A stretch of 64,000 nucleotides of DNA from Adineta ricciae. Its lineage: Eukaryota > Rotifera > Eurotatoria > Adinetida > Adinetidae. Shown here piece by piece: positions 26,909 to 59,917 of this stretch. A program made the translations under genes and the position numbers. The notes beneath the pieces are model-generated. The model had not been told where the DNA came from, did no database searches, and saw only the letters and a program-made list of their open reading frames with translations. The stretch is from positions 244,414 to 308,413 of the forward strand of contig CAJNOJ010000117.1 of NCBI GenBank assembly GCA_905250025.1, written 5' to 3'. The first letter of the stretch is position 1. Every line of letters starts with the position of its first letter.

Positions 26909-28765
26909 ATGTTACAAAATCGCCTTTCGAATGGTTCGTCAACCGTTCGAAAACAACAAACAGCTGTAAAGCAAACTGTTGATCGACCGAAACTCCATTC
27001 TTGGCACAATGATGCATCTAGTCATCGAAATCATTCTTACCAAAATCATCACTTCAGCAATGAAACAAACAATTGGCTGAAATCTTCGCCGAAAATCGTC
27101 GATGACACACCAGAATTGGAATTAACATGTCAAGAAGATATGCTTACCGACACTCAATTACAAAACTATCCAACACAAGTAGTATCTTCATATATCAGTA
27201 GGAAGAAAACATATTTCGAATCTGTTTAGGCGTATGATCCAACAGCTCCACTACCCTTACCAGCTGTTCGTAGACGCACGTCAGTATTAAAGAAAGTACC
27301 GACACAAGATATTGAAATACTTCGAGATCAGGACGAAGATTTCATTCCCAGTGAATCCGATGACGATGATGACGATGATGAAAATTATCTACCAGAACAT
27401 GATCGACGTCCATATAATCGCGCTAGTCATGTGAATGGAAGTATTGGTCGAGGTGAGATTTTAGTATTATAAACAGCAATTTCGAAATTTCGTATTTCTT
27501 AAAGGTCGTGGTCGCGGTGGACGTGGTCATTTAACTTCGACAGTCAATCGATTACCACCCTCAACGCATTTCGTTCGACCACAACCTTCACCAACTCCAC
27601 AACTTCATTCATTATCAACAATGACTAATCATCGACATCAACAAATAGATGCACTTGATCGTACTTATGCTTCAGCTCTAACGCGATTCTATGGTACACG
27701 CAATGGTCAACTAGTCGATTCATCCAGCTACGGAGATTTTCGTATTAGTGCGTTATTCTATTCTGACAAAATCAAAGCTAACTTATGTTTTTCTTGTAGA
27801 ATGTTCGATATGTGGTGAACAGTCAACTAATAACATGTCTTTCATTGCACATTTATGTTCGCACTTCGAGGATGATCTTAACTATATTAGTCCATTTGAT
27901 AAAGTCTACCGTCGTTGTTCGGTGTGTCACGAAGAATTTTCTACACCTTTTCAAACCCTACTGCACAAAGATCAAGAACATCTCTATGACACAAACGAAT
28001 ATCGTTGTCGAATTTGTCAACAAAATCATCCGAATTTAGTCGATTTATTTGCTCATTTGAATTCAGTACATATCGGTCTTGATATGCCTTATTTCTGTGA
28101 TCAGTGTCACTATCGTACGTCCATGTACGAGGACATGGCTCATCACATTCGACAAGTATATCCACATGATTGAAGGTTTATGTTTACACATACAAAACAT
28201 CTTTTGCTTTCAGATCCACAAAGGAACACAATATTTCTTTTGTCCATATTGCTTTCAGTCAGTGCTACTGCCAATGTCTGATACGAATTTGTTGAATTCA
28301 ATACCTGCTTTTCGTCACGTCATTCTTCATTTTGATCGAATCGAAAATAGTAATAATAAACAGCAACAACGTCGCATTGAATCTTTATTTAAATATTGTG
28401 ATCGATGTGTGTTACATGTGAAATCTGTCAAAGAACACTACAGTTATCACCATCCTTTGAATTCGACAACTGATGATGAGGAAAACAATCAGGAAGATTT
28501 CAAACGAAATAATTCTCACCAAACGAATGGTAAGTCAATGAAAAAAGAGAAAATTTCAAGTGATAGGAGTCTATTTTAGTATGTAATCATCGATCGTATC
28601 CATTCAAATTTGATCACAATAAGCATTTACCCATGGCGACTATTCGGCGTCGACCTACAACATCGAATCATTACGAACAGGTAACGTTCGACTGAATCCG
28701 TCAAAGTCTTTAGCTCGTATTTCACTTAGATTCATATCAATAGTCGATGGTATCCTCGCCGGTGA
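26909..28765 (+). CDS. POGZ/ZNF280-like C2H2 zinc-finger protein (copy A)
   Basis: A probable nuclear DNA-binding protein. Exons include 26909-27178, 27230-27452 and 27505-~27748, then zinc-finger exons from about 27801, and a last exon 28730-28765 ending IHINSRWYPRR. After a disordered acidic N-terminus (DDDDDDDE run) and an RGRGRGGRG patch, the C2H2 units begin with CSICGEQ. They continue with CSVCHEEF...H, YRCRICQQNHPNLVDLFAHL...H, YFCDQCHYRTSMYEDMAHH and YFFCPYC, and finally CDRCVLHVKS...H. The pattern of a YRC finger followed by PYFCxxCxYRTSxxxDMxxH and then a CPYC unit is the one I know from POGZ and ZNF280 proteins. It is a clear paralogue of the minus-strand gene beginning at 31960, with which it shares the LTC..D.L...QL...P segment, the YGDFR segment and the fingers. 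Unlike that copy it has no THAP domain. Confidence 0.85.
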
Positions 28766-29250: not shown

Positions 29251-29251
29251 N

Positions 29252-31960
29252 GGACAAAAGAAATATCTTGTTCCTTTATGAACTTCATCAATGTGATAGA
29301 TCATATCGGCATGCATTGATGTTCGAAATGAGCAGACTTTACATGAGTATGGCATTTCTAAACCACAATGGCAGAGATTTAAATGTGCGACTAATTCTAA
29401 TAATGATGCATGACGTTGTTCACATATTCGACAGCGGTATTCATTGATTTCTAACATGTGCTTATCGTCGATATGCATAGCAAGAAAATATGGATTGGAA
29501 AATTCTGATTGACAATGTGCACATTTGGTGTTAATTTGTTCAAAAGGTGAACTGGTATTTGGTTGGAATTGTTCATCACGATTGTTTTCATCGTTTTGCT
29601 GTTGATCAAGATGTTGACAAAGATGCGTAATTAATTGGATATTATTCTCGAAGAGAAGACTTTCACACATTGGACACTAGAAAAGGATTGAACTCGTTAG
29701 CAATTTCCTTTCTTGGAAGTGAAAGATATACCTGACTACGAAAATCACCATAATCAGATAATGGCAAGTTGCGACCGGGTTTTTGACCATAGTATTTCGA
29801 TAGAGCACGCTTGTAAGTATGTTCTGTATGAAAGAGAAGTATGAATTGAGATGTACACACAAAAAAGAAGATTAATTACCAAGTTCGACTTCTAAACCCT
29901 CCTCTAAAACATTGACAAAGCAACTTTTCGTGAGGTATTAAAGTAGAAACAAGTTATTTACCACGCGTTCTAACTGTGCCTGGCTTGAGACGTGGCAATG
30001 GTTGGTCACGAGGATATTGTGTTGAAGCGTTTGGAGCAAAAGCTGGTTGAAGAAATGGTATTGTTGCTTTTCGAGCTGGTTCTGGCTTTACAAATTGTGT
30101 TTGATAGAACTGACCACGGCTCGCTCGTTGTTGATTGTTCAATGAATTACGATGTTGTTGTTGTTGCTGCTGCTGTTGCTGTAGAGGTGTTGATGATTGT
30201 CGCACATTTCGATAAGAATTTGTATGATTACCACCGCCACCACGTTGGTACGATGATGCATAATTATTTGTCGACAAATTCGTCCGTTTAGACCAAGGTA
30301 AACGATCGTCTTGTTGACGATTAATCCAATCACGATCACGAACTGTATCATCTTGATCAGGCTCATTGTTATTCCATTCATCTAGATCATCTAATTCATC
30401 AGGATCTTCGTCTGCATAGTTTGTACGATACGTCGAACGACGTGCTGTGGAATTTGTTGTCGAAGGTGTCGTTGGAGGATATCGAGGATGTAAACGAGGT
30501 CGACCGACTGGATTACGAGGTTTCGGTGCTATACCGTTTGTTGATTCTGTTCGATCCAGAGCCTAAAAATAATCTTTAAATGACAACTCCGCTGGTAAAA
30601 TAACCTACTTTAACAGGACAATGTGCTAATTGTGCTTCGGATAATTGATCATCGAGACAATTCAGATTTAAATCCACATCTATGGTTGGTTTCACATCAT
30701 TAGCCGCCTGTCGAAGATTTTCGTCAAGATTATCACATGACGGTGATGTTGTGAGAAGCTGTTGCTGCTGTTGTTGTTGTTGTTGTTGTTGTTGCTCATG
30801 GAAATATTGTCTTTGGTATTGATTATTAACACTATTTCGATAAGGTAACGATGTTCGTTTATTCGTATTTATTGAATTAGTATTGTTTGACATCGGTGTC
30901 GTTTGCTTAGCACGAATATTTGCCATATCTGATCGGAATCGTTTCGCGGATGAAGATGGAGTTGATGAAGTCGAAGAATTTGTATCGTTCAAATTTTGTT
31001 TCTCGATTAATGAACGAGAGTAGGAAGTGAAAAACGAGGGTATGGCATCAGGACGTAGTGTAGTAGGTCCTTCGAAATCATTTTGGCCAAAATGTTCACG
31101 GCACACTTTGAATGTTGCAGTTGACGGTGATACTGGGATATTTTCGAAACCACATGCATCGAGCCATTTACGCGCAACAGTTGTATCGCGTGGAATTTTA
31201 TATAACTGTACACGATGACGACGAGCAAGATAATTATGCGCACAGCCTTCCACGTGACAACGATTTGACGCTTTATTTTCCGACTAAAACAGAAATTTAT
31301 TGAGCAATGGTTGGCGAAGAGCACACTTCCTTACATTATCATGAGTCAAAGAAGATTTATTCACAATGAAGGATGTTTGGCTTTTATTATCCAGATTTTC
31401 AGTTTGGGTATTATTATTATTTGTTGCTGCTGTTGGTGCTAGACGTGTCTTCACATGGCCACTTTCAAGATTCATCTTTAAAATAGGTTCTAACGTTCGT
31501 CCATCTAGATCAGGATTGCTGGTATGAAAGGTAATATTGGTTTTCTTAATGGCTTTATTTGATTCTTGTAGTTTATCTTGATAAGCAATCATTTTATAGA
31601 AAACCTCCAGATCAAACAATGTTGGTAGAGATTTCGGTTTAAGTACTTTTGTGCCATTTCCAACATAATCGAAACACGGCTCTTCGAAATGTTGTTCACA
31701 TACACGATGTGTTGGAGATGGACGTAGATCAGTACGCATAATATTTTTGTACCAAGCTGCTGATATATTTCCCAGATGTACTGGAACAGAAAAATATTGT
31801 ATCGACGGATTGGATTGGATTCCATTTGGACATCCTTGCACAATACATATTGGATCATTATGATTAAAATGTGCCCTAAATCAAAATCAAAATCAAAAAT
31901 AAATATCTATTTTCATTCATCAAACAGTAACTCAAGACAGCGACCATTGATGACTTACAT
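29252..31960 (-). CDS. Double-THAP plus POGZ/ZNF280-like zinc-finger fusion protein (copy B), 3' truncated at an N
   Basis: The start codon appears split by an intron: AT at 31960-31959, then G at 31875 after an 83-bp intron, giving MAHFNHNDPICIVQGCP. The first THAP zinc finger has C-x4-C (CIVQGC), C-x2-H (CEQH) and an LKPKSLPTLF box. The second, after an intron, has CHVEGC, CREH and LRPDAIPSFF. A Gln run (about 30761-30796) and disordered sequence follow, then a segment paralogous to copy A (LNCLDDQLSEAQLAHCP), a GGGG/Q-rich stretch and the same C2H2 array (CPMCESL, CAHCQSEF, YRCRICEQRHASLLELVAHL, YSCKVCSFRTSMHADM, YFFCP). Coding stops exactly at the N at 29251, where copy A continues CPYC, so the end is lost. 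THAP domains are DNA-binding modules known from P-element transposases and host genes. The likely role is chromatin or transcription. Confidence 0.88.
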
Positions 31961-32604
31961 CCTACCTCGTTGTTGCTACTTCGATACAACAACGAATAGT
32001 AAATTAGAACTAGCAGTGGACACTGGCGTGCTCCGTCGGTGGTGCAGAAGCGACGGCGCAAGAGAAATATGCAACGTTGGGGGGGAATGAATAGCAGCAC
32101 CAGTAGAGAGGCAAAGATACTTCGAGTAAATGTGGAGGATGAACGACGACGACGATGTACACACGCACACACAACAGAATGAAAGAAATAAAAGAGAAAA
32201 GAAAAACGTGCAAGCAAAGCAAACGAGAAGAACAACATAATTTCTTCTCTCTCTCTCTATTTCGTTTTCTCATTTTCTCTCTCTCTCTCCCTGCTTACTT
32301 CGCATTCTGCTGAACTAGACAGCGAAGGGCTACCGACGGACTAACGAACGGACGTCAGGTAGAAACAAAGCTATCAAATGAACTTTTCTTTAATCACTCA
32401 TGATGAGCAGTTTTCTCGTAACACTATTGTTTCGATCAAAGTACGGAAGTTGACAAACCGAAGCATTTTATTCGTATCATTTACAATCAAAACGAACTTC
32501 GAATAAACAACCGTATCAAATAAAATTTATGAGATAAGAATCGACATGAGAAAAAATAGAAGAAATGTTTTCATGCATTAGTATAACCACGAAACGATAT
32601 ATCA
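31961..32604. other. Upstream region of THAP gene
   Basis: It holds the 5' UTR exon and promoter side of the THAP gene and CT-rich repeats near 32243-32292. Open frames in this interval are Arg/Ser low-complexity and are not considered genes. Confidence 0.5.
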
Positions 32605-33649: not shown

Positions 33650-36600
33650 ATGGCTCCTCCGGGACAAAAAAAGCCACAACAAGGACAGCAAAATGGACCG
33701 AAAAAGAAAGGATACAATCCATATAATAAATTCAAAAATCGACATTGGAAAAAGAAAAAAGGAAATAATGATAATTCATCGAAAGATGCTGGCGATGAGT
33801 CCACTCGAGATCATTCACATGCTGTTCCATCAAGTCCAGTGAAAGTGATTCAAACACCGATCAGTACGCTTTTTAGAACTTCATTTCAACTATTCATTCA
33901 CTTACTTTTCCTTTACATTCAGCAACTTATATTAATATTACTGAACAAACAGAACGATACCGTGGCTGGTCTCTCTATTTTCCCGATACAGGTAAAGATT
34001 TTCCAACGAAATCAATTGAATCCCATCGATTGTTTTACTTAGATAAAGAATCTGATCTTAGTTATCTGTCAGTTTGTCAATTATTCGAAAAATATTTCAA
34101 AAATACGAGAGATTTATACGATTATGTAAGCTTTCACATTGATATTCCGAATTCATCAGTAGAAGTTTTCTTCTAGGCTGCCATCGAACAGAAACAGTCG
34201 TTTACGATCAGTTATTCTGAAATTCTCAATGATCAGATGTTTTCAGAAAAAAAGCAAACATGGAGTTTATTCTTCTCCGATCAGAATGAAACAACAATGC
34301 GACTTATTGGTTTAGCTATGCATCAAGTAAGACATTGCACTAATATTTACAAATACAAATACAATCGATTGCAGTGTATGACCGATGAACAAGAAGAAAA
34401 AGATCGATTGGCAGCTAGTGAATGTCATCATCCAACAGTACCTCTTGTTGATCTTCCAATAATTCATGCTCGCCTAGTCAATTTCGCACCACAGATTCAA
34501 TTAAAAGATGTCAAAGCACAAGCTTACGGTTAGTCAGACGTTCTTTCAATGTCATCAACTAGATTTACGTCTAGGTAAATTCGTTTCGATTCGAGGCGTC
34601 GTTGTTCGTGTAAGTAATTCACAATGTTTGGTCATTCGACTTGCATATGAATGTTCAACCTGTCGACATACGTTTGGTGTCACGTGTGAAAATGGCAAAC
34701 ATACCGAACCAGAACGTTGTCCAACGCCCGGTTGTACGAGTCGAGTATTTGTGCAACAACGTTCACATCCATTAACAACAATTATCGATTGGCAAACGAT
34801 TCGGTTGGAGCGCTTTCATTCGATTCAATATGAAAGATTTCGAATAAATGATTCTTTTAGATTGCAAGAAGTTGCTTCCGAAGCATCGAAGGCGCCCGGT
34901 CGAATTCCACAGACAATTGAATGTGAATTAACAAACGATCTTGTCAGTAGTGCGATACCAGGCGATGTCGTCGTTGTTTCTGGTATTGTTAAATTAATGG
35001 TTGATGAAAATAGTATGTCAAGTAGATTTGAATCCGAAAATGTGATAATCTCTTTGTTATCTATTTCGATCAGATGGGATACGAAAAGTATCGGATCAAT
35101 CATTATTACAAGTGTATATTGATGTCAATTCAGTTGTTAATCAACGATTGAATACATCCGAAGGATCTATGAATGGAAATAGTCTGATGAACACGATGGA
35201 CTTTTCTTTATTTGATTTGTATGGTATTCAGCAAATTCAACAGCAACGAAATGTTTTGAAGTGAGTTCGAATTGAAATGATGATGATGATTCGATGACGA
35301 CAAGAATAGATTATTGGTTCATTCACTTTGTCCGAGCATCTACGGACATGAACTTGTTAAAGCAGCACTTCTAATGGCTTTATTTGGTGGATTAGTTCGA
35401 GGCGAAGATGGTGCTGTGAGTAAACTAAGACAACATTTTATTCTTGTCTAGAATGTTTTATTTTAGTCTCATATACCTATTCGGTCTGATCCACATATAT
35501 TGATTGTCGGTGATCCAGGTCTTGGCAAAAGTCAGTTGCTTCACGCTTGTGTGAGTGTTGCGCCACGAGGTAATATTCGTCATTTTCTCTTGTTTTTAAT
35601 GACATTTATTTTCGCGAAAACGTATTGAAGGTGTCTATGTTTGTGGTACAAGTTCAACCCAATCGGGCTTGACTGTCACGCTGCACAAAGATAAAGATGG
35701 TGAATTGATGTTGGACGCTGGTGCACTTGTTATGGCTCATCAAGGTTGCTGTTGTATCGATGAATTCGATAAGATGGTTACTCAACAACAAGTTCTACTT
35801 GAAGCAATGGAACAACAGTGTGTGTCCATTGCTAAAGGCGGAATCATGGCGAGTATACCAGCACGAACATGTGTTATAGCTGCTGCAAATCCTGTTGGTG
35901 GACATTATAATAAAGGAAAAACCGTGTCGGAAAATTTGAAGTAAATTTGCACGATTGGGAAAGATCATGTTGCTTTTGTGCATTTTGAAGATTGAAAGGA
36001 CCGATTTTAAGCCGGTTTGACCTTGTTTTCATTCTTATCGATCGTGCGGATGATGAACTTGATTATCGTTTATCTGAACATGTCCTTGCTCAACACAATC
36101 GTTCAATTCGTTCATCACATAACAATACTACGGTCAGTTCAACTCGAACCCAACATGAAACAACGACAGCGAATTCCAATTCGACCAACGATACTTCTCT
36201 ACTTGATCATTTACGTTTGAAACCTGGTGAGACAATCGAACCAATTGGACCAAGTCTTTTACAAAAAGTAGAAATAGTTTATTTCTCTGAAAATAAATTC
36301 TTCTCATTTTATAGTACATCGCCTATGCTCGTCGATACGTAAAACCGCGTCTAACACGTGAAGCAATCGACATTTTGAAAACATTCTATTTCCAATTACG
36401 TGTTGCTCATCAACGAGATGGTACAACTCCCATCACCCTACGACAACTGGAATCATTAATGAGACTCACTGAAGTAAGAAAAAACCGAAAATAATCAACT
36501 TCACTAAATACATCATTATGGATTTAGGCTCGTGCGAAACTCGAATTACGCGAAGAATGTACGAAATCAGATGCAATTGAAGTCGTTCAAATAATGCGAG

Positions 36601-49727: not shown

Positions 49728-49980
49728 CTGCTCTTTTATATCTTCCATTAAATGCTGTAACAACAAAAGACAAATGAAGTGAAGGAGATAATCACGAACA
49801 CAAACGACTTGTAGATGTGTCACTAGATGGCGAGATATAACAGAAAACTGCGTCGTTTTATTGTGTGCAAATTTTTCTATTAGTTATCGTCTAGTCATTG
49901 TAAATTTTATCGTTTGTTTTTTATTTGTAAATAATGTCGTGTACATTCAATTGTTTTATTTTGCTTTTAGATTGAAAATC

Positions 49981-52675
49981 ATGGCTGATCGTTTTAAAAA
50001 TGTTCGTGTACCTGGTTCAAACGATAATGTCTACAAAGACGAATGTGTTTATTCATTTGATAATCCAGAATCTGAACATGGTCTTTATATTTGTATGTCG
50101 ACATTCCGTGGTGTAGGAAAAGATCATTTAGCACGACATTGTCAAACGAATCCGGGAAAAAATGTTTTTCTACAAATTCTTCGAAGACGAATACCTGTGC
50201 CCGTTGATCCAAATATTGAGCCAACGAAAGTAACCAAATTAGCGATTGGTGTCGAAGGTGGCTTTGATGCTAATCAATCGAATCGATTCACATTTGATGA
50301 AAAATACGCGATTTATATTCATCCAGATGAAACAATTGCCTATCCGAATGAAGTGCAACAACTGCCTGATATTGTCAAACGCTCAGCCGACGCGATTATT
50401 GCGGCTGATTCCGCTTTTTTAAAAGAAGAACGTTCGTTAATGAATGCAACATGGGACGGAGAAACACGGCAAGTAACAAGACATACATCGACATTAGAAC
50501 AGTTGAATAACGGGATAAAAATTCCACCAAGTGGATGGAAATGTCAACATTGTGACTTAACAGATAATCTATGGCTGAATCTAACTGATGGAGCTATTTT
50601 ATGTGGACGAAAGTTCTACGATGGAACAGGAGGAAATAATCATGCAATTGAACATTACAAAAAGACGAAATATCCATTAGCTGTTAAGCTCGGTTAGTTA
50701 GAAGAACTAGATGATAAATCTTGTTTAGTTATTTGATCGATAACTACGATGTTTTCTTCTAGGAACAATCACTGCCAAAGGTGCTGATGTGTACTCTTAT
50801 GACGAAGATGATATGGTTGAGGATAAAAATCTTGCGATTCACTTATCACATTGGGGCATCAATATGTTAAAAATGGAGAAGAGCGATCGAACAATGGCTG
50901 ATTTAGAAATTGAATTAAATCAAAAATATAGTGAAGCATCCGCAATCGAAGAAGCCAATTCAAAATTACAACCTGTCTATGGACCAGGTAGATAAACGTA
51001 CCACCGATTTCATTGTAATCAACTGTTCACTATTTTCAGGTTATACGGGAATGAGAAATTTAGGCAATTCATGTTACATGAATTCTGTTGTTCAAGTCCT
51101 ATTTACTCTCAGTGACTTTCAAGACAAATATTATAAGCATTGTGATTTCTATTTCGATACAGCAAAAGATCCTGCTCATGACTTTAACGCTCAAACAGCG
51201 AAATTAGCATTTGGCCTTTTATCTGGACAGTATTCCAAGTCACTTCCTGCCACTAGTGATCCAACATTATATCCACCGTCAGGTATTCGTCCTCAAATGT
51301 TTCGATCATTGATTGGACGTGATCATGCCGATTTCGGTACGAAACAACAACAAGATGCTGCTGAATTTCTTCAATATTACATTGAGCAAGTGCATAATCA
51401 TTGCTTGAAAGATCCAACACCAGATCCAGAATTAGATCCAAGTATTTGCTTCCAATTTGAATTGGAGGAACGAATCTATTGTCCAGATACAAATCAAGTT
51501 CGTTATATAGCTCGACCTGATTCGATGCTCCGAATGAATGTTCCATTGGAAGCTTCGAGAAATATGCACGAAGTCCTCCAGTACAATGCAACAAAAGAAG
51601 AACTAGAAAAACAAGGACAAAAAACCGACGACTTACCAATTGTGCGTCCAATTGTTCCACTGAAAGAAACTATTGCGCATTGGGCTGCACCAGAAGAAAT
51701 CCGTGACTATATTTTACCACGTGATGGTCGCCGAACTACAATTCGAAAAACGCAAAGATTTCGAAATTTTCCAGATTATCTCTTCATTCAGTTGAAGAAA
51801 TACACGTTCAATCCTGACTGGACACCAAAGAAGATCGATGTGTCCATGGAAATTCCTGACGAAATCGATCTGAATTCACTGCGCGGAACAGGTTTCCAAC
51901 ATGGTGAAACATTGATGCCAGAAGGTAAAAGTCTCACTAGTCGTCTGAATAGCAAGTTAGATTTTACTTTTATTTATAAGATGAAACCTCCGGAGCCGCA
52001 GCAAGTTCAGGATCGGCTGTTCATGTTAATGAAGTTCTTCTTCAACAACTTGTCGATATGGGTTTTTCAACTGAAGGTTGTAAACGTGCGTTGATCAACA
52101 CAGGAAACAATGATGTTGAAGCTGCAATGAATTGGGTATTCGAACATCAATCCGATCCCGATTTTGATACACCTTATCAAGCACCAAGTAAAAAGGCTCG
52201 AGTAGAACAAACACCGCCAGTGAGATCTTTCTCTCCTGTCAATACTTGTCGTCTAGTTTTATACATAACTGAAATTTAGGTTGATGAAGAAAGTGTGGGA
52301 TTAGTTATGTCCATGGGCTTTTCACGTTCACATGCTGTTCGTGCATTGACAGTATCGAACAATAACGTTGAAGCAGCTGTGGATTGGGCTCTCAATACAC
52401 CAGAAGATGATTCTGCGTTAAGCACTCTAATTCAATCATTACCTCAATCAGCACCTGTAGAACAATCGAAATCACAATTTCGTGATGGCACTGGCAAGTA
52501 TCGTCTCATTGCTCTCATTTCACATATTGGCAAACATCCATCATCTGGTCACTATGTTGCCCATATTCTTAAAGAAGGCCGCTGGGTGATCTTCAATGAT
52601 GAAAATGTGGCACTCTCGGAACATCCACCAAAAGATTTAGCTTATCTTTATTTATATAAACGTGAAACGGCTTAA
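49981..52675 (+). CDS. USP5: Ubiquitin carboxyl-terminal hydrolase 5 (isopeptidase T)
   Basis: This is a cysteine deubiquitinase that disassembles free polyubiquitin. Five exons, starting 49981: 49981-50693, about 50763-50990, about 51041-51925, about 51981-52219 and about 52280-52675. Domains in order: the N-terminal cryptic ZnF (VYKDECVYSFDNPESEHGLY); ZnF-UBP (GWKCQHCDLTDNLWLNLTDG, CGRKFYDGTGGNNHAIEHY), which reads the free Gly-Gly tail; the USP Cys box GMRNLGNSCYMNSVVQVLF with catalytic Cys; QQQDAAEFLQYYIEQV; two UBA domains (LVDMGFSTEGCKRALINTGN and LVMSMGFSRSHAVRALTVS); and the His box HPSSGHYVAHI with catalytic His. It ends LAYLYLYKRETA. All catalytic residues are present and the length is typical of USP5/USP13. 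Confidence 0.97.
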
Positions 52676-58942: not shown

Positions 58943-59917
58943 TCCTAACCCTACTTTCTGCTATTGTGCGTGCAGAATGCAACACACACAACCCAAATTC
59001 CTCGTCATTCTCTCATCATTTGCTAGCACAAGAAACAACAAACGAAGACAAATATACACCCACGTCTAGCGGATTGATCAATTCTACTATCTTTTTTTCT
59101 CTTCTCGCGATCGTTTTTTCTCGGCATTTTCTTAAAAACGAAAAACAAACATCATTCTAACGTTCAACACATCGTACGTCTATATGTTCTTCGGATTGGT
59201 CAGTAAACGACAATCAGTAAGTTTATTCTTTTGCTCTTTTACTTGAACAAATGCACAGTGTTGTGTAATCAGACAGCGCCAGGTGCCAAGCGTATATTCT
59301 TAACTCTTTCAGTCATTTTTTTGCTTTTTCCTGTTAATTATTGTATACGTAACATAAACCAAATATAGGTGAGTCTTAGCATTGGATGTATATCGTTATC
59401 GAAAATCGGCAGCTGTTTTCATGCATGCATCTAATCGATATTAATCGATTAAAACGAGACAGTTTATTTGAAAATGAGTGTGAAATACTTTAAGACGGGA
59501 CGTTTTCAATAAATATATTTCTAGATGAAGGCCTTTTCGTAATAATTCTTTCGTTGGAGAAAAAGGCCTAGAATGAGATGGCNGTAGTTCACATATCACC
59601 ACTGTTACTATTCTCATCATCATTTTCATGAACATTTTCATTCTCTTTCGTCTATCAATGTCCGATGTTGAAATATAGTTGGCAAGCTTATCATCATTAA
59701 CACGTAGTGTGAGAAAAAAGAAGGCGAAAAAAAAGAAACGAAAGAATGTATGTCTAGTGTCTATTTTATGTTTGATTCATTTGTCCGACCATAGTAAAGT
59801 AATATCAATCAGTAATAATATGTTATTGAGGTCAACAATGAGGTAGCAAGACATTGAAGTTTAGTTGTATCGAAATGAAATTTGTGAACAATTTTTCTTT
59901 CTTTTATAGTTGGCTCC
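57477..59917. other. 2.4-kb region upstream of the RUN-domain gene
   Basis: No gene can be supported. It contains a long CT repeat (58909-58939) and a single ambiguous base at 59583. A possible non-coding first exon with donor CAATCA|GTAAGT lies near 59217, and an acceptor TTTTATAG precedes 59911, consistent with a 5' UTR intron of the next gene. Confidence 0.5.
58909..58939. repeat. (CT)n microsatellite
   Basis: About 15 uninterrupted CT/TC dinucleotides; on the other strand this is a GAGA tract. Confidence 0.9.

Follow-up and report, generated by a model that had tools for sequence, protein, structure and literature searches.

New regulators are known to arise through the joining of transposase-derived DNA-binding domains to host domains. 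An HCF-1-binding motif and a coiled coil are described for most human THAP proteins (PMC6944463), and one or several THAP domains occur in chromatin-associated regulators of Caenorhabditis elegans (PMC9757741, PMC8552245). There, LIN-36 and LIN-15B work with DREAM (PMC8552245), HIM-17 is linked to germline promoters co-opted from transposons (PMC9757741), and LIN-15B, F19F10.11 and ETS-6 have their THAP domains fused to another domain (PMC12570147); the available text on these nematode proteins mentions no POGZ-like finger array. POGZ itself, alias ZNF280E (PMC7301966), is a chimeric vertebrate protein that includes a Passer-type pogo transposase (PMC7386202). Here we analysed a stretch of 64,000 nucleotides from contig CAJNOJ010000117.1 (C117) of the rotifer Adineta ricciae, hereafter the window, in which the minus strand at 31960-29252 encodes two THAP domains and then four complete C2H2 fingers in one in-frame protein. 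The rotifer gene resembles the nematode fusions in joining THAP domains to another domain; a C2H2 array of this type is not part of the description of most human THAP proteins. A literature search, which did not cover sequence databases of other animals, found no description of tandem THAP domains with this array in the text available, and the gene is a real, possibly lineage-specific, fusion of known parts. On sequence grounds, we consider it quite likely to be a single bdelloid gene whose product is a nuclear regulator of chromatin or transcription that binds DNA sequence-specifically.

Removal of six introns, all GT-AG and 46-83 bp long, joins seven exons in frame, and the resulting reading frame stays open for 786 residues up to an assembly gap. 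Both C2CH THAP signatures and the C2H2 array, which an earlier note on this DNA had read in frame, are indeed present on the minus strand. The note's span proved correct at 31960, the first base of the start codon, but not at 29252, where the gap cuts the gene short of its end. The missing part, as read from the homologous contig C25, comprises 119 residues and one further intron. The features of the gene are as follows; a diverged copy on contig C21 is included in the comparison.

31959..31960, minus strand: coding part of exon 1, the AT of a start codon (AT/G) split by intron 1, likewise in C25 and C21.
31335..31875, minus strand: exon 2, THAP domain 1 (residues about 11-88) and linker.
30609..31283, minus strand: exon 3, THAP domain 2 (from about residue 189), then a Q-rich low-complexity linker; phase-0 introns on both sides.
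29962..30562, minus strand: exon 4, low-complexity, with conserved blocks and, by eye, a single motif resembling an AT-hook, PVGRPRLHPRYPP.
29880..29903, minus strand: exon 5, a microexon of 24 bases whose skipping would keep the frame.
29732..29823, minus strand: exon 6; the tetrapeptide EHTY spans the exon 5/exon 6 junction.
29252..29676, minus strand: exon 7, cut by the gap after four complete C2H2 fingers and the first residues (YFFCP) of a fifth.
29251, no strand: N, the assembly gap, where the C25 homologue has about 430 bases that complete the array and contain the final intron and the stop codon.

Pfam scans of the proteins gave no match in exon 4. Two minor features of the 5' half were also recorded. 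Intron 2 (31284-31334, minus strand) has a length of 51 bases, a multiple of three, and in the window ends with an in-frame TAG; its C25 counterpart (L009:3408-3458) contains no stop, such that the two THAP exons there lie in a single open frame, 435 codons long, even without splicing. The 5' leader beside the split start (31960-32038, minus strand) is well conserved between the window and C21, within a 76% match reaching 32038.

The THAP domains are the best supported part of the protein. Two PF05485 hits, which the earlier note had named as a check and whose absence it would have taken as a refutation, were recovered as two stretches scoring 89.5 bits together (cut-off 23.9, E value 2.5e-25) and 51.8 and 51.3 bits singly, and two stretches were found in each of the C25 and C21 proteins as well. 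THAP domains coordinate zinc through a C-x2-4-C-x35-50-C-x2-H consensus and share an invariant P, W and F and the P of the AVPTIF box. The spacings measured on C25 and C21, C-x4-C-x43-C-x2-H and C-x4-C-x46-C-x2-H, lie within this consensus, and P31, W41, F63 and P84 are common to both window domains. Both domains therefore have the zinc ligands and all four invariant residues, as do human THAP1, THAP2 and THAP11 and the P-element transposase. A sequence-profile search of solved chains retrieved THAP2 (E 3.1e-5) and THAP1 (2.3e-4), but THAP11 only at 0.16. For a low-confidence structure model of THAP domain 1 (predicted local distance difference test score, pLDDT, 54), the top six of 29 PDB matches were THAP chains, the P-element transposase among them, with a best E value of 2.5e-3 and none below 0.001; the model was given little weight.

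A PF05485 search of the whole assembly (130.5 Mb, 1033 contigs) yielded at least 10 matches at seven loci, a lower bound. Tandem THAP domains occur at three of these, on C117, C25 and C21, all with the finger array, and single matches at the other four (C670, C152, C61 and C978). A coarse search of 8 kb around each single-THAP locus found a C2H2-like pattern at none of the four; this is a weak negative, as the coarse pattern recovered the THAP itself at only one of them and two of the stretches (L011 and L014) contain 269 and three N, respectively.

The same architecture recurs in both further copies. The C25 gene is complete, with 911 residues, eight exons and seven introns, and matches the window at 95%, continuously across the gap; the published median homologous divergence of the species is 4.55% (PMC5916493). 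The C21 copy encodes 866 residues, again in eight exons with seven introns, in identical domain order and with intron phases equal to those of C25 as judged from exon lengths. Synonymous (dS) and nonsynonymous (dN) divergence, calculated by the Nei-Gojobori method, amounted to 0.164 and 0.011 between C25 and the window (dN/dS 0.067, 784 codons), and to 1.401 and 0.137 between C25 and C21 (dN/dS 0.098, 861 codons), the latter dS being above 1 and thus near saturation. Mean synonymous divergence (KS) in A. ricciae is 0.135-0.14 for homologues and 1.27 for ohnologues (PMC5916493), values that fit C25 as the homologue and C21 as the ohnologue. The stretches of C21:528000-555500 that are collinear with the window from about 17.5 to 53.4 kb are consistent with what would be expected of an ohnologous segment. 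The architecture is more than chance, as exon order and domains recur both in the homologue and, at a dS of about 1.4, in the other copy.

In both comparisons, with homologue and with ohnologue, purifying selection acts on THAP domains and fingers alike. For C25 against the window and against C21, dN/dS was 0 and 0.057 in THAP domain 1, 0.054 and 0.124 in THAP domain 2, and 0.013 (142 codons before the gap) and 0.09 in the fingers. The regional maxima fell in low-complexity parts, namely exon 4 (0.152, C25 against the window) and the linker after THAP domain 2 (0.265, C25 against C21). Since the ohnologue shares exons and domain order at an ohnologue-like dS, fusion of the THAP domains to the array seems to predate bdelloid tetraploidy and to have been maintained ever since.

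The finger array has a similar order to that of POGZ/ZNF280 proteins, PYxCxxCxYR(S/T)S...CPYC. Against a reference sequence for the human POGZ array, phmmer scored 66.3 bits for C21 and 62.7 bits each for C25 and a THAP-less neighbouring gene described below. A Smith-Waterman alignment with the same reference scored 222, whereas none of 300 shuffles that left C and H at their positions exceeded 140. Among solved C2H2 chains, the best score was 27 bits when the gap-cut array of the window served as query and 26.9 with a three-protein profile, a contrast to be taken only as a guide because queries and settings differ and solved chains are no more than a sample of C2H2 proteins. We regard the array as probably of the ZNF280/POGZ type, the label given by the earlier note, with the qualification that the human reference was not taken from a database. 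POGZ has a pogo/DDE domain, whereas Pfam scans of the C25 and C21 proteins (E up to 10) found none, these proteins having THAP domains instead; nor did these scans reveal a ZNF280 N-terminal domain. The family zf-POGZ (PF25429) had no match anywhere in the assembly, in a search without a positive control. It was dropped as a test of the POGZ label because it was uninformative: it did not appear among the 25 of 28 families listed when the POGZ reference array was scanned, and the model probably covers another part of POGZ. On C60, another match to the fingers (E 4.9e-6) appears to be a generic C2H2 gene, presumably Gfi-1-like, and was set aside.

A second gene with such an array, but without THAP domains, adjoins the first.

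26909..28695, plus strand: THAP-less paralogue of 507 residues and six exons, with a homologous finger array, convergent with the THAP gene.

Its array matches that of the THAP gene at about 181-186 bits, and intron 3 of the THAP gene has its aligned counterpart in intron 1 of the paralogue (PTQ/AYD and PVK/ALD). A Pfam scan at E up to 10 found no THAP domain in the paralogue. A possible THAP relic upstream of it (best E 0.035 over 31 residues, in a loose search) was taken as chance. The C25 copy of the paralogue keeps all five introns and is constrained (dS 0.153, dN 0.018, dN/dS 0.116). The paralogue was not found in a search of the C21 block, and in the genome search its own exons were found only on C117 and C25, the further matches being the THAP gene copies and a weak one on C18 (E 2.5e-4). 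In the finger region, dN between the paralogue and the THAP gene is 0.506, far in excess of the 0.12 between the ohnologue and the THAP gene, which suggests that the array gene was duplicated before tetraploidy, unless the paralogue evolves faster. ZNF280/POGZ proteins, taken as the outgroup, are not known to carry THAP domains. With this outgroup, gain of THAP domains by one copy takes a single step, and is therefore favoured over gain before the duplication followed by loss in the neighbour, which takes two. Most likely, then, as far as these comparisons go, the THAP part was joined to one of the two array-gene copies before bdelloid tetraploidy. The complete scenario, in which duplication of a ZNF280/POGZ-type gene took place within the rotifer lineage, one of the copies acquired two THAP domains before tetraploidy, and the resulting chimera is confined to bdelloids, is more tentative, and we put it forward as a possibility somewhat short of even. 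If true, this array would have been combined twice, independently, with a DNA-binding module of transposase origin, the other case being vertebrate POGZ with its pogo transposase. Fused and unfused sister genes are neighbours at this locus, and a homologue and an ohnologue are present in the same genome; the timing of the fusion and its effect on binding are hence testable. Its relevance is to rotifer gene regulation and to the evolution of ZNF280/POGZ-type proteins, not as a new mechanism.

As a regulator, the protein could work through several modules. Each THAP domain would read a short DNA site, and the pair a longer or paired one; the AT-hook-like stretch might touch the minor groove, the ZNF280/POGZ-type array would serve to bind nucleic acid or partners in chromatin, and EHTY may recruit co-regulators such as HCF-1. 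Several observations weigh against this proposal. Generic C2H2 models remained under their Pfam cut-offs (zf-Di19, 21.7 against 27.5; zf-H2C2_5, 17.3 against 27; zf-C2H2_4, 10.9 against 27), for which reason the finger call rests on motif, homology and conservation. The finger linkers, by eye, are unlike the standard TGEKP type, and together with the sub-threshold scores this leaves DNA contact by the array not assured. The structure model of the array was useless (pLDDT 43), and the human POGZ reference was not drawn from a database. The AT-hook-like motif was matched once, by eye, and Pfam lends it no support. EHTY, at residue 621 in C25 and 574 in C21, fits the HCF-1-binding motif [D/E]HxY, but this pattern turned up in 698 out of 5000 shuffled versions of the C25 protein, and in the window the paralogue itself bears an unrelated motif of the same type. 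With chance matches this common, the motif was kept only as a hint; most human THAP proteins carry it, and its presence does not decide HCF-1 binding (PMC6944463).

Other functions were weighed against that of a chromatin or transcription regulator. The protein could act mainly in repair of DNA double-strand breaks, with the THAP domains giving choice of site or partner, a function that would be of relevance in a desiccation-tolerant rotifer. The likeness of the array to the POGZ reference sequence speaks for this, and the reported links of ZNF280A and POGZ to human break repair (PMC13113357) make it deserving of attention. Pfam scans, however, show no repair domain and the array resemblance is moderate, rendering this role unlikely. 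Quite unlikely, too, is transposon silencing, in which THAP domains captured from a P-like element would guide the array to transposon DNA. THAP domains are described as related to the P-element DNA-binding domain (PMC9757741), and POGZ is reported to bind heterochromatin proteins (PMC7301966). On the other hand, a genome search without a positive control detected no P-element RNaseH-like domain (PF21787), and both THAP domains are constrained at a dS of 1.4, whereas an arms race would presumably leave a different pattern. The earlier note's proposal of a protein aimed at transposons accordingly gained no support: nothing found points there, and transposons in the locus were not searched for.

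The regulator could also be an artefact of wrongly joining two adjacent genes, one with THAP domains and one with fingers, and a finger gene devoid of THAP domains does adjoin. Nevertheless, introns 2 and 3 (51 and 46 bases in the window, both phase 0) lie at the same places in all three copies, and the 46-bp intron 3, which separates the second THAP exon from exon 4, leaves little space for a terminator and a promoter. C21, moreover, has an identical exon chain. A joining error is thus very improbable, and the single gene with tandem THAP domains and array proposed by the earlier note holds as one exon chain conserved in three copies. Finally, a domesticated or decayed P-element-like transposase, to which the THAP domains might point, is scarcely credible, as no catalytic domain was detected in the complete proteins of C25 and C21 by Pfam scans at E up to 10, and the finger array takes its place.

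Beyond this gene, a single N also stands at 59583; such an N may represent a longer gap, since that at 29251 replaces about 430 bases of the homologous contig. The guanine-cytosine content of the window ranges from 0.325 to 0.404 in 2-kb bins, and that published for A. ricciae is 35.6% (PMC5916493). Two other sets of exons were recognized on the plus strand of the window. Those at 34505-36342 resemble an MCM-family helicase, which we take to be MCM8-like, and those at 49792-52094 a ubiquitin-specific protease with a zf-UBP-like part, presumably USP5/13-like.
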